Positions 14,829 through 19,756 of a DNA stretch of 64,000 nt are shown piece by piece. Both the position numbers and the translations under genes were made by a program. This DNA is from Thermoplasmata archaeon (GTDB lineage Archaea > Thermoplasmatota > Thermoplasmata > Thermoplasmatales > Thermoplasmataceae): NCBI GenBank assembly GCA_021810045.1, contig JAJZJR010000001.1, positions 1 to 64,000 of the forward strand, written 5' to 3'. Numbering within the stretch: position 1 is the first letter of the stretch; the number at the start of each line of letters is the position of its first letter. A model generated the notes under the pieces. That model was not told the DNA's origin, did not search any database, and saw only the letters and a list, made by a program, of their open reading frames with translations.

Positions 14829-14969
14829 TAAGAGTCATATGACATTGACGTTAAAAAAATATGTGAATCTTCTGTATTTTACAGAAGCATCGGGATTATG
14901 TATGAAATTATGCATGTTCAACAACAGGTGATAAATTTTAAATTGGCATGAGTGCTTAAAACCCTGAAG

Positions 14970-15467
14970 ATGAGAAAAATAGCAAGCCGTGAAGACAAAG
15001 CCGTCTCGCCAATTATTGCAACTGTACTTCTTGTTGGCATCACCGTTACTATGATTGCCACAGCATACACCCTCCTCGAGAATTATATTCCCAGTCCAAC
15101 ACCAGGTACTCCTTCTGCAAATCTTAAGGCAGTTTACAACCCACAAACAAGCAGCACTCCATTTTACAACAATTACACGGTTTACATAAATTCACTTAAC
15201 GGAAATGTATCCGTGAAGGACGTAAGCATAATGATAACGCTTTCAGACAATAAGGTACTCGACATCCCCCTTGAACAGGTCTATGCAAATTCAAATTCCC
15301 TCAATTATACCAGCAGTCTTTCAGTATCACTGCAGAGCAGTTCGGGATACCTGACAAGCACCAGTTCCCTGGATATCCATCTACACAACTCCCAAAGCAA
15401 GATAAACAGAATCTCGCTGGTAGACACTTTTACAGGTGGTTCCATCGGTACAGTCCTGATACCGTGA
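14970..15467 (+). CDS. Type IV pilin N-terminal domain protein
   Basis: About 165 residues. The N-terminus MRKIASREDKA followed by VSPIIATVLLVGITVTMIA is the archaeal pilin class III signal and helix. I start at the ATG at 14970; one six codons earlier (14952) is also possible. The body is Asn/Ser/Thr-rich with sequons and predicted beta structure. This is probably a pilin or pseudopilin exported to the cell surface, but no assembly ATPase is nearby. Confidence 0.78.
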   Translation: MRKIASREDKAVSPIIATVLLVGITVTMIATAYTLLENYIPSPTPGTPSANLKAVYNPQTSSTPFYNNYTVYINSLNGNVSVKDVSIMITLSDNKVLDIPLEQVYANSNSLNYTSSLSVSLQSSSGYLTSTSSLDIHLHNSQSKINRISLVDTFTGGSIGTVLIP

Positions 15468-15501: not shown

Positions 15502-16098
15502 TTATTTTTGGCCGGTTGTGGTCCTTGTGATACCTTGATCAGGGATTGAGAAGAAAGCAATAGAAATTATTATCTGTGCAACAACCAGAAGCAGGAAACC
15601 TACCATTATTATGACTGTTATAGAGCCGATAAGATAGAACAGAGCACCGGTTTCAAACAGCGGGATATTCAGTCTGCGTGAAATTTCTCCGTAACTTTTG
15701 TGGATGAAGTATCCTGAAAGTATGAGCAGAAGCCAGGTAACAGCCAAGGCGGGGAGGATTAAGACGGCCAACCCTGCAAGGTTGACTGCCCCCAAATTCT
15801 GATACTGCTCCATCATAGCAGGATAGCCATTGGGGTAATTCAGTCCGAAATAATGCAGGAAGATTGCCACCACGAAAAAAGCTGCCAGTGCAACAGCTAC
15901 AATTGCAAAAACAATGGAAAGAATTGCATTTGTGAATATCTCCCGTTCACCCAGTCCAGTTGAAATTCTATGGATTGCAATGAGAATCAGCACAAAACCT
16001 GCAATTCCAAGAATCCAGCCAATAGACGGAACAAATGTGAGAATTACCAGTATAGATCCAATTCCACCATATATCCTGGCATCTGAATAAGGAGTCAT
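15502..16098 (-). CDS. DUF996-type membrane protein
   Basis: 198 residues with about five hydrophobic helices. The opening ARIYGGIGSILVILTF...GWILGIAGFVLILIAIHRIS matches my memory of the archaeal DUF996 membrane family. Function unknown. Convergent with the pilin-like gene, with 34 bp between the stops. Confidence 0.7.
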   Translation of the reverse strand: MTPYSDARIYGGIGSILVILTFVPSIGWILGIAGFVLILIAIHRISTGLGEREIFTNAILSIVFAIVAVALAAFFVVAIFLHYFGLNYPNGYPAMMEQYQNLGAVNLAGLAVLILPALAVTWLLLILSGYFIHKSYGEISRRLNIPLFETGALFYLIGSITVIIMVGFLLLVVAQIIISIAFFSIPDQGITRTTTGQK

Positions 16099-16286
16099 AA
16101 TAATCTCCTGTTTTTCAACCTGGTGATAAATATATACTTTAATCCTAATGGAAAAAATAATTTTTAGGAAACAGCACGAATATATTATCCATGATTTACA
16201 ATTTTCTACTGACTGGCCTTTTGCGGTTTTCCGGGTTGAGTGCTTTATCTGCCAACAATTTTATATATTAAATCATTTAAGTTTGG

Positions 16287-19200
16287 ATGAATATTAAAAG
16301 AGAAATATTTTCATTTAGAGACAGGGAAAAACTGGAAGGTTCCAGTGGCAGGAATGGAACATCCTGCTTCATAAGGTTTTTCTCTATTTTTCTCGTCTTC
16401 CTTATGGTGATCTCAACTATCAATATCATCACCCACACCAATTCAAGCAAGATTATATCGAACTCACTTTCCCCAAAAATCACCGGCACTACAGATGGCC
16501 TGTTCCATGTATCCGGAAATTTTGAAAATATTCCTTTTTTCCCGGCTTCAGTGTATAGTTCAGCAGGGGCCCAATACAACAAAACCATAGCAGTACTGGT
16601 GTCGTTCTCGCTGAACAACCAGCCTCAGCTTCAAAACCTCCTTTCAGGTCTGCAGGACCAGAAAAGCACCAATTACCACAATTACATAACAAGGTCCCAA
16701 TTTACCCAAGATTTTTCTGTATCTTCCGACATTTACAAGCAGGCAGGCATTTATTTCCATTCTTTTGCAGGAATTTCCGTTAAGAATTATTCTGACAGAG
16801 TTTCAATGAGGATAACAGGTCCTGCATCGCAGATTGGCAAAGCCCTAAACACAACCTTTTCGGCCATTAATGGTATATATCACGCAAATTCTGCACCAGA
16901 ATTGCCTTCAACCCTCGCAAATTATGTTTCCTTTATTTCAGGATTAAGCAATTCTGTTAAGTTGAAAAGTGCCATCATGGGAGGAGCCTTTTCCAGCATT
17001 CCATCTCATTACTCCAGCACTGTTCATGGCTACCCGGAACCTGTGAATAATGGCAGTTATCAGGAAATCTTTGGCACTGATATGCAGGTTGCATATGAAG
17101 AGCAATCACTCTTTAATGTGACATACGCCAACAGGGAGGTTATTGCAAACATTCTCTGGTCTGGACACGATTCTTCTGGCATGGGAGTTGGTGCTTTTTA
17201 CCCATACGATATTTCCACATACTTTAACGCCACTGTTCCATCATTTGAACCGAGGCCGCTTGTTTACGGTGTGCCAATCCAGGGTGCACCTGCTCCCGGG
17301 GCTTCAGCAGCTGGAGACATTACAGGGGCAAATCTGGCAAACACTGCAAGCCTGGAAATGATTGGAAGCATGGCGCCTGGGGCAAGTGTTTATGATGTTT
17401 ACGGTCCAAATGCAACCTTTGAATCTGTATATGCCGCCCTGGCTTCTGTGCTTAATCCAAATCCATCGGATTCCCCGTTAAACAATGTATCAGTGATTAA
17501 CAATCCCTGGCTAGGTCAGCAATATAACAGTTCCATGTGGTACTCATACATGGAGGAAGCAGCAGCCAGAGGTATAACTGTTATTTCCGGGAGCGGAAAC
17601 TCCGGGGATAACACGTCTGGCTCAAGCACATTGGATTCCCCGGGATCAATGGCTTATGACAACTTTGGAGTTACTGCAGTTGGGGGAACAGAAGTATCCC
17701 TTCGGGGAGATCTTATGCTCTACCATCAGCAGCCCTGGTACATGCATTATAAGAATCAGGTTGCAGGCAGCACTGGAGGAATAAGCAGTATTTACCCGGA
17801 GCCTGCCTGGCAGAGTTCAAGTTATGCAAATAATGTAATTGGTGGTAAGGGCAGAGGCGTGCCAGATATTTCGGCACTTGCAAACAATACAGCAATATTC
17901 TGGACAGATGATGGGATCAATCACGATTCCATGAACAACTACTATAATGTGCGTGGCACTGGAATTGCTTCATCTCTGGTCGCAGGGATTATCGGGGAAT
18001 CCGATGCTGTTCTTCATCACTATAATCAGAACAATGCCGGTTACCTCAACCCGTTTATCTACTCTATTGCTGAAAAACAGTTTAAACCGTATCCAAAAAA
18101 TACGTTTTCATACGGTTTCGAACCATCAGGAAATTATCTTTTTTCAACAGGAATGGCTGCGTTCTCTGATGTGGCAGGTGGGGGATATGGCTTGTATAGG
18201 GCAGTTTATCCATATAACCTGGTAACTGGATGGGGCTCCATAAACGCATATAATTTCACCAGTTTTATGCTCCATACAAACTATTCGGCGGATTCGTATG
18301 CTGCAAAAGGAGTGATCGATAATCTTGTTCTCAATGGCCTAAGAGTAACTTCATACAAGATCAACTACACTGACATGAAAAATGAAAATGTAAACACGGT
18401 TCTGAATGCATCAATCCAGCAGAATCTGTTCTTATCAAACCAGCTTAACGCACCAGTTTACTGGATACAGAACGTTATAGATTTCAAGGCCTTATCCAAC
18501 TCTGACTGGACCGTCTACTACAGCGAATGGGTGATGTTTCCATTCTACGGACAGTATTATCATGAGACATTCCAGTATAACTACCATTATCTCCAGAGAA
18601 ACGGACCAGTTCCTCACAATTATGACATGAAAACCTGGCTTGCAGGATCAGGTCATGGAGATAACCAGGTTATGTATTTCCAGTTTGACAACCTGCCAAC
18701 ACTGTCTTTACCCGTTCCTGGGGCTGCGTATATAATCACACAGCATAACTATACATATTCATGGAATGGGCAGACCTACTATAATGGGCCATATCCTGAT
18801 AATTCTTTACTTGGCGGCCTTGATCCGCAACTTGGTCTTGTTGGAGGGCCGACCCTAAGCAACGGGGAATTCGAATCCCCGACTTCCGGAACCATGAATG
18901 TGTCCTATGAGCCGATGTACAGCAACCACTACATCACACCCATAACCACAACATTCCACAATTCTACGGACCAAACTGGTGAAAGGGCCTCTAACCTTTT
19001 GTGGAGTCAGGCATCGCAGGGGCACTGGACTCTCGGGATAAAACAGAATTCGGGATTGCAGGGAGTGGAAATCTATTCGCCACAAGGTTATAATGTGACT
19101 TTCCACGAGAATGGATTACCCACTGGAAAACATTGGTTTGTTAATCTCAGTGGAGGCGCTTCCTTTGAATCAGACTCGAATTCCATTTCCTTCACTCTGC

Positions 19201-19439
19201 CCAATGGAACCTATACTGTGAATGTTACTGCACCGGGATACTATGTTGCCCATCCTTTCCATTATTCCTTTAACGTGACAGGAAATGTGACAGTTTCAAA
19301 AGCCGTTGTTTTCAATTATACGCCACCACAAAGCATACTTTCCCCATTTTTGCATAACAAGCTATACCTGCTTGCAGGTGGCGTGATCCTGATAGCAATA
19401 GCAGCTACCGTCTTTGGAGTCAGAAGGCGGAAAACCTAA
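16287..19439 (+). CDS. Sedolisin (S53)-like membrane-anchored protein, catalytic residues missing
   Basis: 1050 residues: N-terminal membrane helix near 32-48, a prodomain-like region, an S53 peptidase-like core (about 240-660), a long C-terminal beta-rich region, a domain starting NVTFHENGLPTGKHWFVNL as often seen in Thermoplasmata surface proteins, and a final anchor helix LYLLAGGVILIAIAATVFGV with basic tail. Aligned by eye to sedolisins, the catalytic Glu, Asp, oxyanion Asp and Ser fall at A351, S355, N438 and G559 (SGNSG for SGDSG; GTGIAS for GTSAS). It is probably not a peptidase by the usual mechanism. Many NxS/T sequons point to a glycosylated outer face. Confidence 0.75.
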   Translation: MNIKREIFSFRDREKLEGSSGRNGTSCFIRFFSIFLVFLMVISTINIITHTNSSKIISNSLSPKITGTTDGLFHVSGNFENIPFFPASVYSSAGAQYNKTIAVLVSFSLNNQPQLQNLLSGLQDQKSTNYHNYITRSQFTQDFSVSSDIYKQAGIYFHSFAGISVKNYSDRVSMRITGPASQIGKALNTTFSAINGIYHANSAPELPSTLANYVSFISGLSNSVKLKSAIMGGAFSSIPSHYSSTVHGYPEPVNNGSYQEIFGTDMQVAYEEQSLFNVTYANREVIANILWSGHDSSGMGVGAFYPYDISTYFNATVPSFEPRPLVYGVPIQGAPAPGASAAGDITGANLANTASLEMIGSMAPGASVYDVYGPNATFESVYAALASVLNPNPSDSPLNNVSVINNPWLGQQYNSSMWYSYMEEAAARGITVISGSGNSGDNTSGSSTLDSPGSMAYDNFGVTAVGGTEVSLRGDLMLYHQQPWYMHYKNQVAGSTGGISSIYPEPAWQSSSYANNVIGGKGRGVPDISALANNTAIFWTDDGINHDSMNNYYNVRGTGIASSLVAGIIGESDAVLHHYNQNNAGYLNPFIYSIAEKQFKPYPKNTFSYGFEPSGNYLFSTGMAAFSDVAGGGYGLYRAVYPYNLVTGWGSINAYNFTSFMLHTNYSADSYAAKGVIDNLVLNGLRVTSYKINYTDMKNENVNTVLNASIQQNLFLSNQLNAPVYWIQNVIDFKALSNSDWTVYYSEWVMFPFYGQYYHETFQYNYHYLQRNGPVPHNYDMKTWLAGSGHGDNQVMYFQFDNLPTLSLPVPGAAYIITQHNYTYSWNGQTYYNGPYPDNSLLGGLDPQLGLVGGPTLSNGEFESPTSGTMNVSYEPMYSNHYITPITTTFHNSTDQTGERASNLLWSQASQGHWTLGIKQNSGLQGVEIYSPQGYNVTFHENGLPTGKHWFVNLSGGASFESDSNSISFTLPNGTYTVNVTAPGYYVAHPFHYSFNVTGNVTVSKAVVFNYTPPQSILSPFLHNKLYLLAGGVILIAIAATVFGVRRRKT

Positions 19440-19577
19440 AGACCCAAGAGAGTGACAGCATTGTTTCATTTTTTTATGACTGGAACAACACATCCTATTT
19501 TTTCAGCTTTAAAGCCTATAATTCGTGACTGCCAGGGGTCCTGTGCAACCTTGTACAGAATCTCAACAGAAGAAGTA

Positions 19578-19652
19578 CGGGCCCGGTGGGATTCGAACCC
19601 ACGATCACCGACTTAGAAGGACGGTGCCTTATCCAGACTAGGCCACGGGCCC
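19578..19652 (-). tRNA. tRNA-Arg (anticodon TCT)
   Basis: Minus-strand cloverleaf: acceptor GGGCCCG/CGGGCCC, T arm GTGGG/CCCAC with TTCGAAT loop, anticodon loop CTTCTAA (plus-strand 19613-19619) giving TCT. One T-T mismatch in the anticodon stem. No intron or encoded CCA. Confidence 0.94.
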
Positions 19653-19756
19653 GTTCGCTTTAACGTTGCAAAGGACTTTAAGGTTTCGCTGAATTTGAAC
19701 TGAAAAACCATATCAGGCCTCATTGAGTTTAATAACAAATTTGTACTGTGTACAAC

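Follow-up and report, generated by a model that had tools for sequence, protein, structure and literature searches.

What can a surface-anchored relative of the sedolisin (S53) peptidases do for its cell once every residue that would cut is gone? The question is raised by the gene at positions 16287 to 19439 on the plus strand of the window, by which we mean the whole stretch of 64,000 nucleotides analyzed here (contig JAJZJR010000001.1 of a Thermoplasmata archaeon). A sequence-only reading of the locus had placed the catalytic replacements by eye and had suggested that the product, giant and with an anchor and glycosylation sites, may be a pseudoprotease of the cell envelope. That the product (the query) belongs with S53 at all is well marked by its matches. 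PF09286 (Pro-kuma_activ) matches amino acids (aa) 95 to 222 with an E value of 5.1e-13 and 49.9 bits against a cutoff of 23.5; a phmmer search against PDB sequences at an E value of ≤0.01 returned four matches, all of them kumamolisin, the best of which (3.6e-10) covers aa 323 to 599; and a 19-row family profile matches pro-kumamolisin 1t1e (2.1e-30) and tripeptidyl-peptidase 1 (1.1e-18). Judged by these matches, the query is an S53 homologue, and its similarity to the family does not arise by chance.

None of the S53 tetrad of Glu, Asp, oxyanion Asp, and Ser is retained in the query. In kumamolisin, the available text of PMC5935664 and PMC8004986 describes E78, D82, D164, and S278 as making up the triad and oxyanion hole, with Asp164 acting as the general acid/base. 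A MAFFT alignment with kumamolisin sets these residues against A351, S355, N438, and G559, respectively, which are exactly the positions that had been named by eye.
16287 to 19439, plus strand: open reading frame (ORF) of the pseudo-sedolisin fusion protein, ATG start, 1050 aa, without an internal stop
17337 to 17339, plus strand: codon GCA, A351 at kumamolisin Glu78
17349 to 17351, plus strand: codon AGC, S355 at kumamolisin Asp82
17598 to 17600, plus strand: codon AAC, N438 at kumamolisin Asp164 (oxyanion)
17961 to 17963, plus strand: codon GGA, G559 at kumamolisin Ser278 (nucleophile)

No new Glu or Asp was found in the query within eight residues of any lost catalytic position, and because the acidic residues nearest to those positions are kept as Asp or Glu in most or all active relatives (D344 in 69 of 69, E357 in 74 of 74, and D441 in 51 of 74), no substitute acid appears to lie nearby. 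S562 is common to 65 of 75 active relatives. The calcium-site region near the C-terminal end of the domain could be aligned, with D628 kept and a Gly replaced by Pro at 642; this site varies across the family. Sequencing error is disfavored as the cause of the tetrad loss, since many separate in-frame changes would be required; the AGC codon of S355 is at least two base changes away from GAT or GAC. Very probably, then, S53 catalysis has been lost from this protein.

The loss stands out sharply within the order. We gathered 96 distinct relatives from the order and from one named contig, with the weaker S53 matches fetched in part. Of these, 94 have letters at all four positions and every one reads E-D-D-S; the remaining two are contig-edge fragments that agree with this pattern as far as they reach. 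L028 shows S, with gaps at the other three positions. No inactivated protein besides the query turned up in this collection, and the earlier idea that its substitutions might be conserved among Thermoplasmatales fails because those 94 relatives keep E-D-D-S. The damage is also concentrated. Of 51 positions that at least 95% of relatives conserve, 11 are lost in the query and 5 in the next worst of 75 other rows, and nine of the 11 correspond to kumamolisin E78, L81, D82, S128, G130, A160, D164, S278, and P282. The losses sit, as far as the alignment places them, at the catalytic residues and their surroundings. The S128 and G130 positions, which we take to line the substrate, are P407 and L409 in the query; because they have changed too, the old substrate cleft becomes a less convincing site for binding a ligand. 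A substrate-trapping decoy that works through that cleft is disfavored on the same ground, as the shell of the active site has changed along with the tetrad.

The remaining parts of the protein tell a different story from the catalytic domain. The parts are as follows.
16356 to 16439, plus strand: N-terminal hydrophobic stretch, signal peptide or anchor (aa 24 to 51, hydropathy)
16569 to 16952, plus strand: S53 prodomain PF09286 (aa 95 to 222, Pfam match), strict invariants kept
17073 to 18272, plus strand: S53 catalytic-like domain (about aa 263 to 662, homology to kumamolisin and family profile)
18273 to 19076, plus strand: C-terminal domain (C-domain), remotely thermopsin-like (aa 663 to 930, profile comparisons), sedolisin-fused in 13 of 13 matches
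19077 to 19316, plus strand: GLP..W repeat domain, one copy (aa 931 to 1010), with many matches in long frames of these archaea
19359 to 19424, plus strand: C-terminal transmembrane anchor (aa 1025 to 1046, hydropathy)

In a set of 22 fused proteins, which omits five more divergent ones (L056, L058, L062, L091, and L035), the query has lost 15 of 81 catalytic-domain invariants against a median of 1, the next being L090 with 9 of 75. Elsewhere, compared with the 21 other fused proteins, its prodomain keeps all 7 invariants and its repeat all 3, and its C-domain lacks 2 of 21. L090 (G076:C76) is itself a fused sedolisin with E-D-D-S; in addition to its 9 of 75 losses, Asn-Ser-Trp-Gly has become Met-Ser-Tyr-Gly, and its specificity is possibly altered. 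The GLP..W repeat also occurs in very long open frames of up to 4600 codons at G038:C3 and G054:C17. Two features predicted earlier were recovered, the membrane anchor as the hydrophobic stretch at the C terminus and the glycosylation sites as 27 N-x-S/T sequons (x not P). The term giant is relative, as the lengths of fused relatives range from about 1040 to 1680 aa.

Sampling of the whole class overturned the impression, taken from the order (0 of 94 inactivated), that the query is a singleton. The search covered 400 class genomes, with two candidates scored per genome, together with 78 genomes of genus g42 and 103 of family f15, for which we used a profile whose source proteins were inactivated ones, the query among them. 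Loci were drawn from the best-scoring matches of length-capped lists and are nonrandom, pieces shorter than 150 aa were dropped, and L028 lies outside the resulting set. Apart from the query, this set holds 159 distinct S53 ORFs, eight of which lack the tetrad, all in genus g42 of family f15. Seven of these read S-E-D-A (L248), A-E-N-G (L249), A-E-N-A (L250), A-E-D-A (L251), Q-D-N-G (L252), A-D-D-G (L253), and A-E-N-G (L280); the fragment L296 has Gly at the Ser position, with the other tetrad positions outside its coverage. Glu and Ser are both gone in all seven inactivated f15 proteins that cover both. With the query, inactivated proteins number 9 of 160, and all nine are fusions of prodomain, sedolisin domain, and C-terminal domain. 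The other fused ORFs are 61 with E-D-D-S and 2 fragments with Ser, whereas the nonfused ORFs are 86 with E-D-D-S, 2 fragments, and none inactivated. Because sampling was nonrandom and some frames counted as not fused are cut by contig ends, the tie between inactivation and fusion is an association and not a rate, and 9 of 72 fused proteins is no estimate of prevalence. In one further locus, L306 (G404:C252:8500-13500), a fused S53 gene is split into two ORFs in different frames, with Glu, Asp, and Asp on one and Ser on the other, which probably reflects a frameshift or an assembly error.

We masked the active-site columns and built a tree from 69 fused proteins plus 6 outgroups, leaving out L296. 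The query groups with L082, L084, L085, and L128 from its own order (Shimodaira-Hasegawa-like approximate likelihood ratio test [SH-aLRT] support of 93), six inactivated f15 proteins form one clade (SH-aLRT 93), and L252 pairs with the active-type L246 as its sister (SH-aLRT 100). The masked tree requires three changes. Approximately unbiased (AU) tests rejected holding all eight inactivated tree rows together (p 4.7e-6) and holding the seven f15 rows alone together (p 1.6e-5); the inactivated group was defined by residues, yet an earlier tree had already shown it when these tests were made. The simplest reading would be three independent losses, the alternative being two losses and a regain in L246. 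Common ancestry of the query with the inactivated f15 proteins, with which it shares ANTA and GTG strings, is rejected by the masked trees and the AU test.

These lineages have lost much the same things. Catalytic-domain invariants are missing at 9 to 20 of 77 positions in the inactivated rows (of 67 for L280), against a mean of 1.6% and a maximum of 6.8% in active rows. Prodomain invariants are lost at 0 of 12 positions in five inactivated rows, 1 of 8 in L252, and 1 of 12 in the query, L280 having no letters there, and C-domain invariants at 0 of 10 in the inactivated f15 rows and 1 of 10 in the query. The query and the f15 clade share nine lost positions, six of which lie outside the tetrad (T288, L354, S407, G409, L433, and P563); the hypergeometric p for sharing these six is 0.001 when sites are treated as exchangeable. 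The shared positions read as residues that may matter only for cutting.

The frame of the query also looks maintained. In 300 runs of a neutral simulation carried to the observed change of 11 of 51 codons, stops averaged 11.5 with a minimum of 4, and in 300 runs to 7 of 47 changed codons, with the tetrad left out, they averaged 8.2 with a minimum of 1; the query has none. Its root-to-tip length of 0.83 falls among those of the active relatives (0.45 to 0.93), and its third-position G+C of 0.433 within the span of 12 other window genes (0.332 to 0.466). Since the query is without a close orthologue, the open frame and the unequal constraint, and not dN/dS, are our grounds for inferring selection after the loss. 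A decayed-looking S53 gene at G012:C11:15427-17211 carries five in-frame stops, in contrast to the intact query. The query appears to combine the two properties by which a pseudoprotease is recognized, namely, loss of the catalytic residues and retention of the protein, in this case by a selection that we infer from sequence.

What, then, might such a protein do? We see about an even chance that it is a maintained pseudoprotease that works as a zymogen-locked surface scaffold, in the following way. The kumamolisin zymogen removes its own prodomain autocatalytically, according to the available text of PMC8004986. Because removal depends on the enzyme's own activity and the tetrad of the query is gone, the query would be unable to shed its prodomain and would persist as a zymogen-like assembly of prodomain and sedolisin domain. 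This assembly may form a rigid, acid-stable ectodomain that holds the conserved C-domain at the cell surface and that binds rather than cuts, its ligand being perhaps a surface or S-layer protein, a peptide, or an active protease paralogue. Cutting could be a dispensable layer over a noncatalytic role in the fused family, which would explain how it came to be lost in several lineages, three by the best tree. Of the earlier proposal of a structural or ligand-binding pseudoprotease of the envelope, what holds up is a secreted-type, anchored sedolisin homologue that lacks its catalytic residues and whose frame looks maintained; binding of a ligand through the old cleft is the part that has lost ground. 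The fusion with the C-domain and the recurrence of the inactivation elsewhere in the class had been overlooked. More tentatively, and on balance doubtfully, the scheme may extend to the whole class: the fusion family would have had a nonproteolytic envelope function from the start, with an optional serine-carboxyl site that was discarded repeatedly and convergently to give obligate-zymogen pseudoproteases.

Several observations weigh against the scaffold reading. AlphaFold2 run on a two-row alignment of the query gave a mean pLDDT of 27.6 and no usable model. The tetrad changes alone (4 of 51) left 7 of 300 neutral runs without a stop, so the argument for maintenance depends on the losses beyond the tetrad. 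No full-length orthologue of the query occurs in the five other genomes of its genus. The trees come from quick searches and carry no bootstrap, letter composition deviates in 34 of 75 rows, and the terminal branch of the query is long (0.73 to 1.11 across trees); the exact placing on the tree is less sure than the separation of the inactivated lineages. The neighbors of the gene in the window (pilin, DUF996, Pcc1, prefoldin, and GTP cyclohydrolase) suggest no binding partner.

In the likeliest rival, the inactivated protein regulates an active S53 paralogue by dimerizing with it, presenting its substrate, or lending it an inhibitory prodomain. A precedent is MamO, which promotes proteolysis by MamE (PMC4794232, in the text available), and the prodomain invariants retained in the inactivated rows would suit such a role. 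Four of the nine genomes concerned encode an active-type E-D-D-S copy: G000, which is the genome of the query and has one such paralogue, on C13 (L038), as well as G352 (L255), G370 (L260), and G398 (L254). In all four, however, the active copy lies on another contig, so that co-location supports no pair; the copy in G000 is a distant paralogue with a different C terminus; and no active copy was present among the loci fetched from the other five genomes, in a search that was not exhaustive. We consider a regulatory partner or decoy unlikely. Since G000 has an active-type S53 paralogue and also five thermopsin matches above the Pfam cutoff (loci L076 to L080, including C48, C50, C59, and C77), this organism probably makes acid proteases.

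In the next rival, rather less likely still, catalysis has moved to the C-domain as a divergent thermopsin-type (A5) peptidase and the sedolisin half serves only as a chaperone. A C-domain search of 60 other genomes gave 13 matches in 11 of them, each in a frame that also has a sedolisin domain, with one match being a contig-edge fragment that holds the end of that domain. Fusions of this kind are widespread in the class (L053, L054, L082 to L091, L205, L210 to L212, L216 to L218, and others). In five profile comparisons with thermopsins, the C-domain scored 27.7 to 41.4 (E values of 7.5e-5 to 5.7e-3) and was colinear over 180 to 206 columns, exceeding 30 column shuffles (at most 18.2) and control domains (at most 21.1). 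The conserved thermopsin positions discussed in section 12 of PMC3842238 (Q109, N111, Q128, D/N129, and E305) map to motifs that the query keeps as Q711, N713, W726, Q728, N729, and T-G-E 897 to 899, and D846 falls at the Asp257 motif. Against this, the hhalign probability of the link is 6.5 to 62%, depending on the row sets, D846 is Asp in just 10 of 26 fused relatives, the counterpart of Asp302 is Q896 (with D895 adjoining), the inactivated f15 proteins L249 and L253 have also lost W726 and Q728, and the active site of thermopsin is itself not established in the available part of PMC3842238. No Pfam model matched aa 663 to 930 of the query, PF05317 is absent from its Pfam matches at E values up to 10, a PF05317 search of its own genome gave no match here, and the family is not among 25 of the 36 Pfam families listed for 19 fused-family members. 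Thermopsin A5 membership of the C-domain is disfavored, PF05317 being unmatched and the profile link weak, and we describe the domain as apparently remotely thermopsin-like, without a claim of activity.

The genomic setting of the gene bears on where it came from and on whether it might be a relic.
14952 to 15467, plus strand: archaeal type IV pilin (PF07790), two genes upstream, same strand
15502 to 16098, minus strand: DUF996 protein (Pfam), one flank of the variable site by gene order in the genus
16260 to 16267, plus strand: candidate TATA-like element, TTTATATA, at -27 relative to the ATG
19577 to 19653, minus strand: tRNA-Arg(tct), 3' side, other flank of the variable site by gene order in the genus

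The TATA-like element 27 bases 5' of the ATG would be in keeping with a leaderless archaeal transcript. One of six genomes of the genus carries the gene. G004 shows the same neighbor order minus the query gene, with about 180 bases from DUF996 to tRNA-Arg(tct), and G003, G001, and G005 have other genes beside the tRNA, including an ABC transporter, a DNA methylase, and a primase-like gene. The stretch from 16099 to 19577 (with L181 to L184) varies among five genus genomes, holding the query gene, nothing, an ABC transporter set, the DNA methylase, or the primase-like gene, and looks like an insertion hotspot. The type IV pilin gene stays in place in G004 and G003, both of which are without the query gene. 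The nearest relatives of the query come from genera and families of the order other than its own. Either gain by transfer into the tRNA-flanking site or repeated loss would account for this, transfer seeming the likelier of the two. A virus origin was rejected, as the viral contig set held no relative and PHROGs gave no match.

This patchy occurrence at a variable site, the long terminal branch, and the example of the decayed copy with five in-frame stops (G012:C11) would suit a relic, that is, a gene decaying after a recent relaxation of selection, functionless and open by luck. It is improbable in light of the zero stops, where about 8 to 11 would be expected under neutrality, a root-to-tip length inside the span of the active relatives, the concentration of loss in the catalytic domain while other domains are still constrained, and the six-protein f15 clade, whose frames stayed open after the same loss as far as the contigs reach. 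Least of all do we credit a query that still cuts by means of different residues at the former active site. Although S562 and S563 lie near position 559, there is no new Glu or Asp within eight residues, S562 belongs to 65 of 75 active relatives, the shell is altered, and the oxyanion Asp, described as the general acid/base of kumamolisin in the available text of PMC5935664 and PMC8004986, is gone.

Convergent loss in a single architecture, with the prodomain kept, offers a natural test of what prodomain and fold do once cutting is gone. Counts of S53 genes in acidophile genomes may overstate secreted proteolysis, and the comparison also exposes a widespread sedolisin and thermopsin-like fusion. 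Pseudoproteases are already known from several families, MamO being one (PMC4794232, in the text available), and no study of sedolisin pseudoenzymes appeared among the open-licence papers listed by our searches; as far as these searches show, the inactivated fusions would be the first described set. S53 homologues without the hallmark residues are not unheard of, having been met before and set aside: in the available text of PMC6278154, 204 of 230 eukaryotic S53 hits were kept after catalytic, oxyanion, and structure checks, and 26 were discarded.

Among known systems, MamO resembles the query in having a protease domain, of HtrA type, that lost catalysis and took on a noncatalytic role, such pseudoproteases having arisen independently in three taxa; it differs in its trypsin-like fold, its metal binding, its occurrence in magnetotactic bacteria, and its unrelated family (PMC4794232, in the text available). 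Cuniculiplasma, of the Thermoplasmatales, has the same two acid peptidase families, S53 peptidases and thermopsins, predicted to be secreted, but as two separate predicted peptidases, and the available part of PMC5155288 mentions no inactive or fused protein. With thermopsins (A5), the query shares the weak colinear profile likeness of aa 663 to 930 and the Q..N, YWxQN, GGP, and TGE motifs; it differs in lacking a PF05317 match, in having Gln for Asp302 and a variable counterpart of Asp257, and in the sedolisin fusion seen in 13 of 13 matches. With kumamolisin and other S53 sedolisins, it shares the PF09286 prodomain, the catalytic-domain sequence at aa 323 to 599, and conserved glycines and motifs, whereas all four catalytic positions are replaced, P and L stand at S128 and G130, and a C-domain and an anchor are added. 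The proposed state has a likeness in pro-kumamolisin 1t1e, whose 552-aa chain reads GTAAVAP, with Ala at Ser278 and the prodomain still attached; it is a laboratory variant of an active enzyme and not a natural pseudoenzyme, but it offers a man-made analogue of what we propose for the query.

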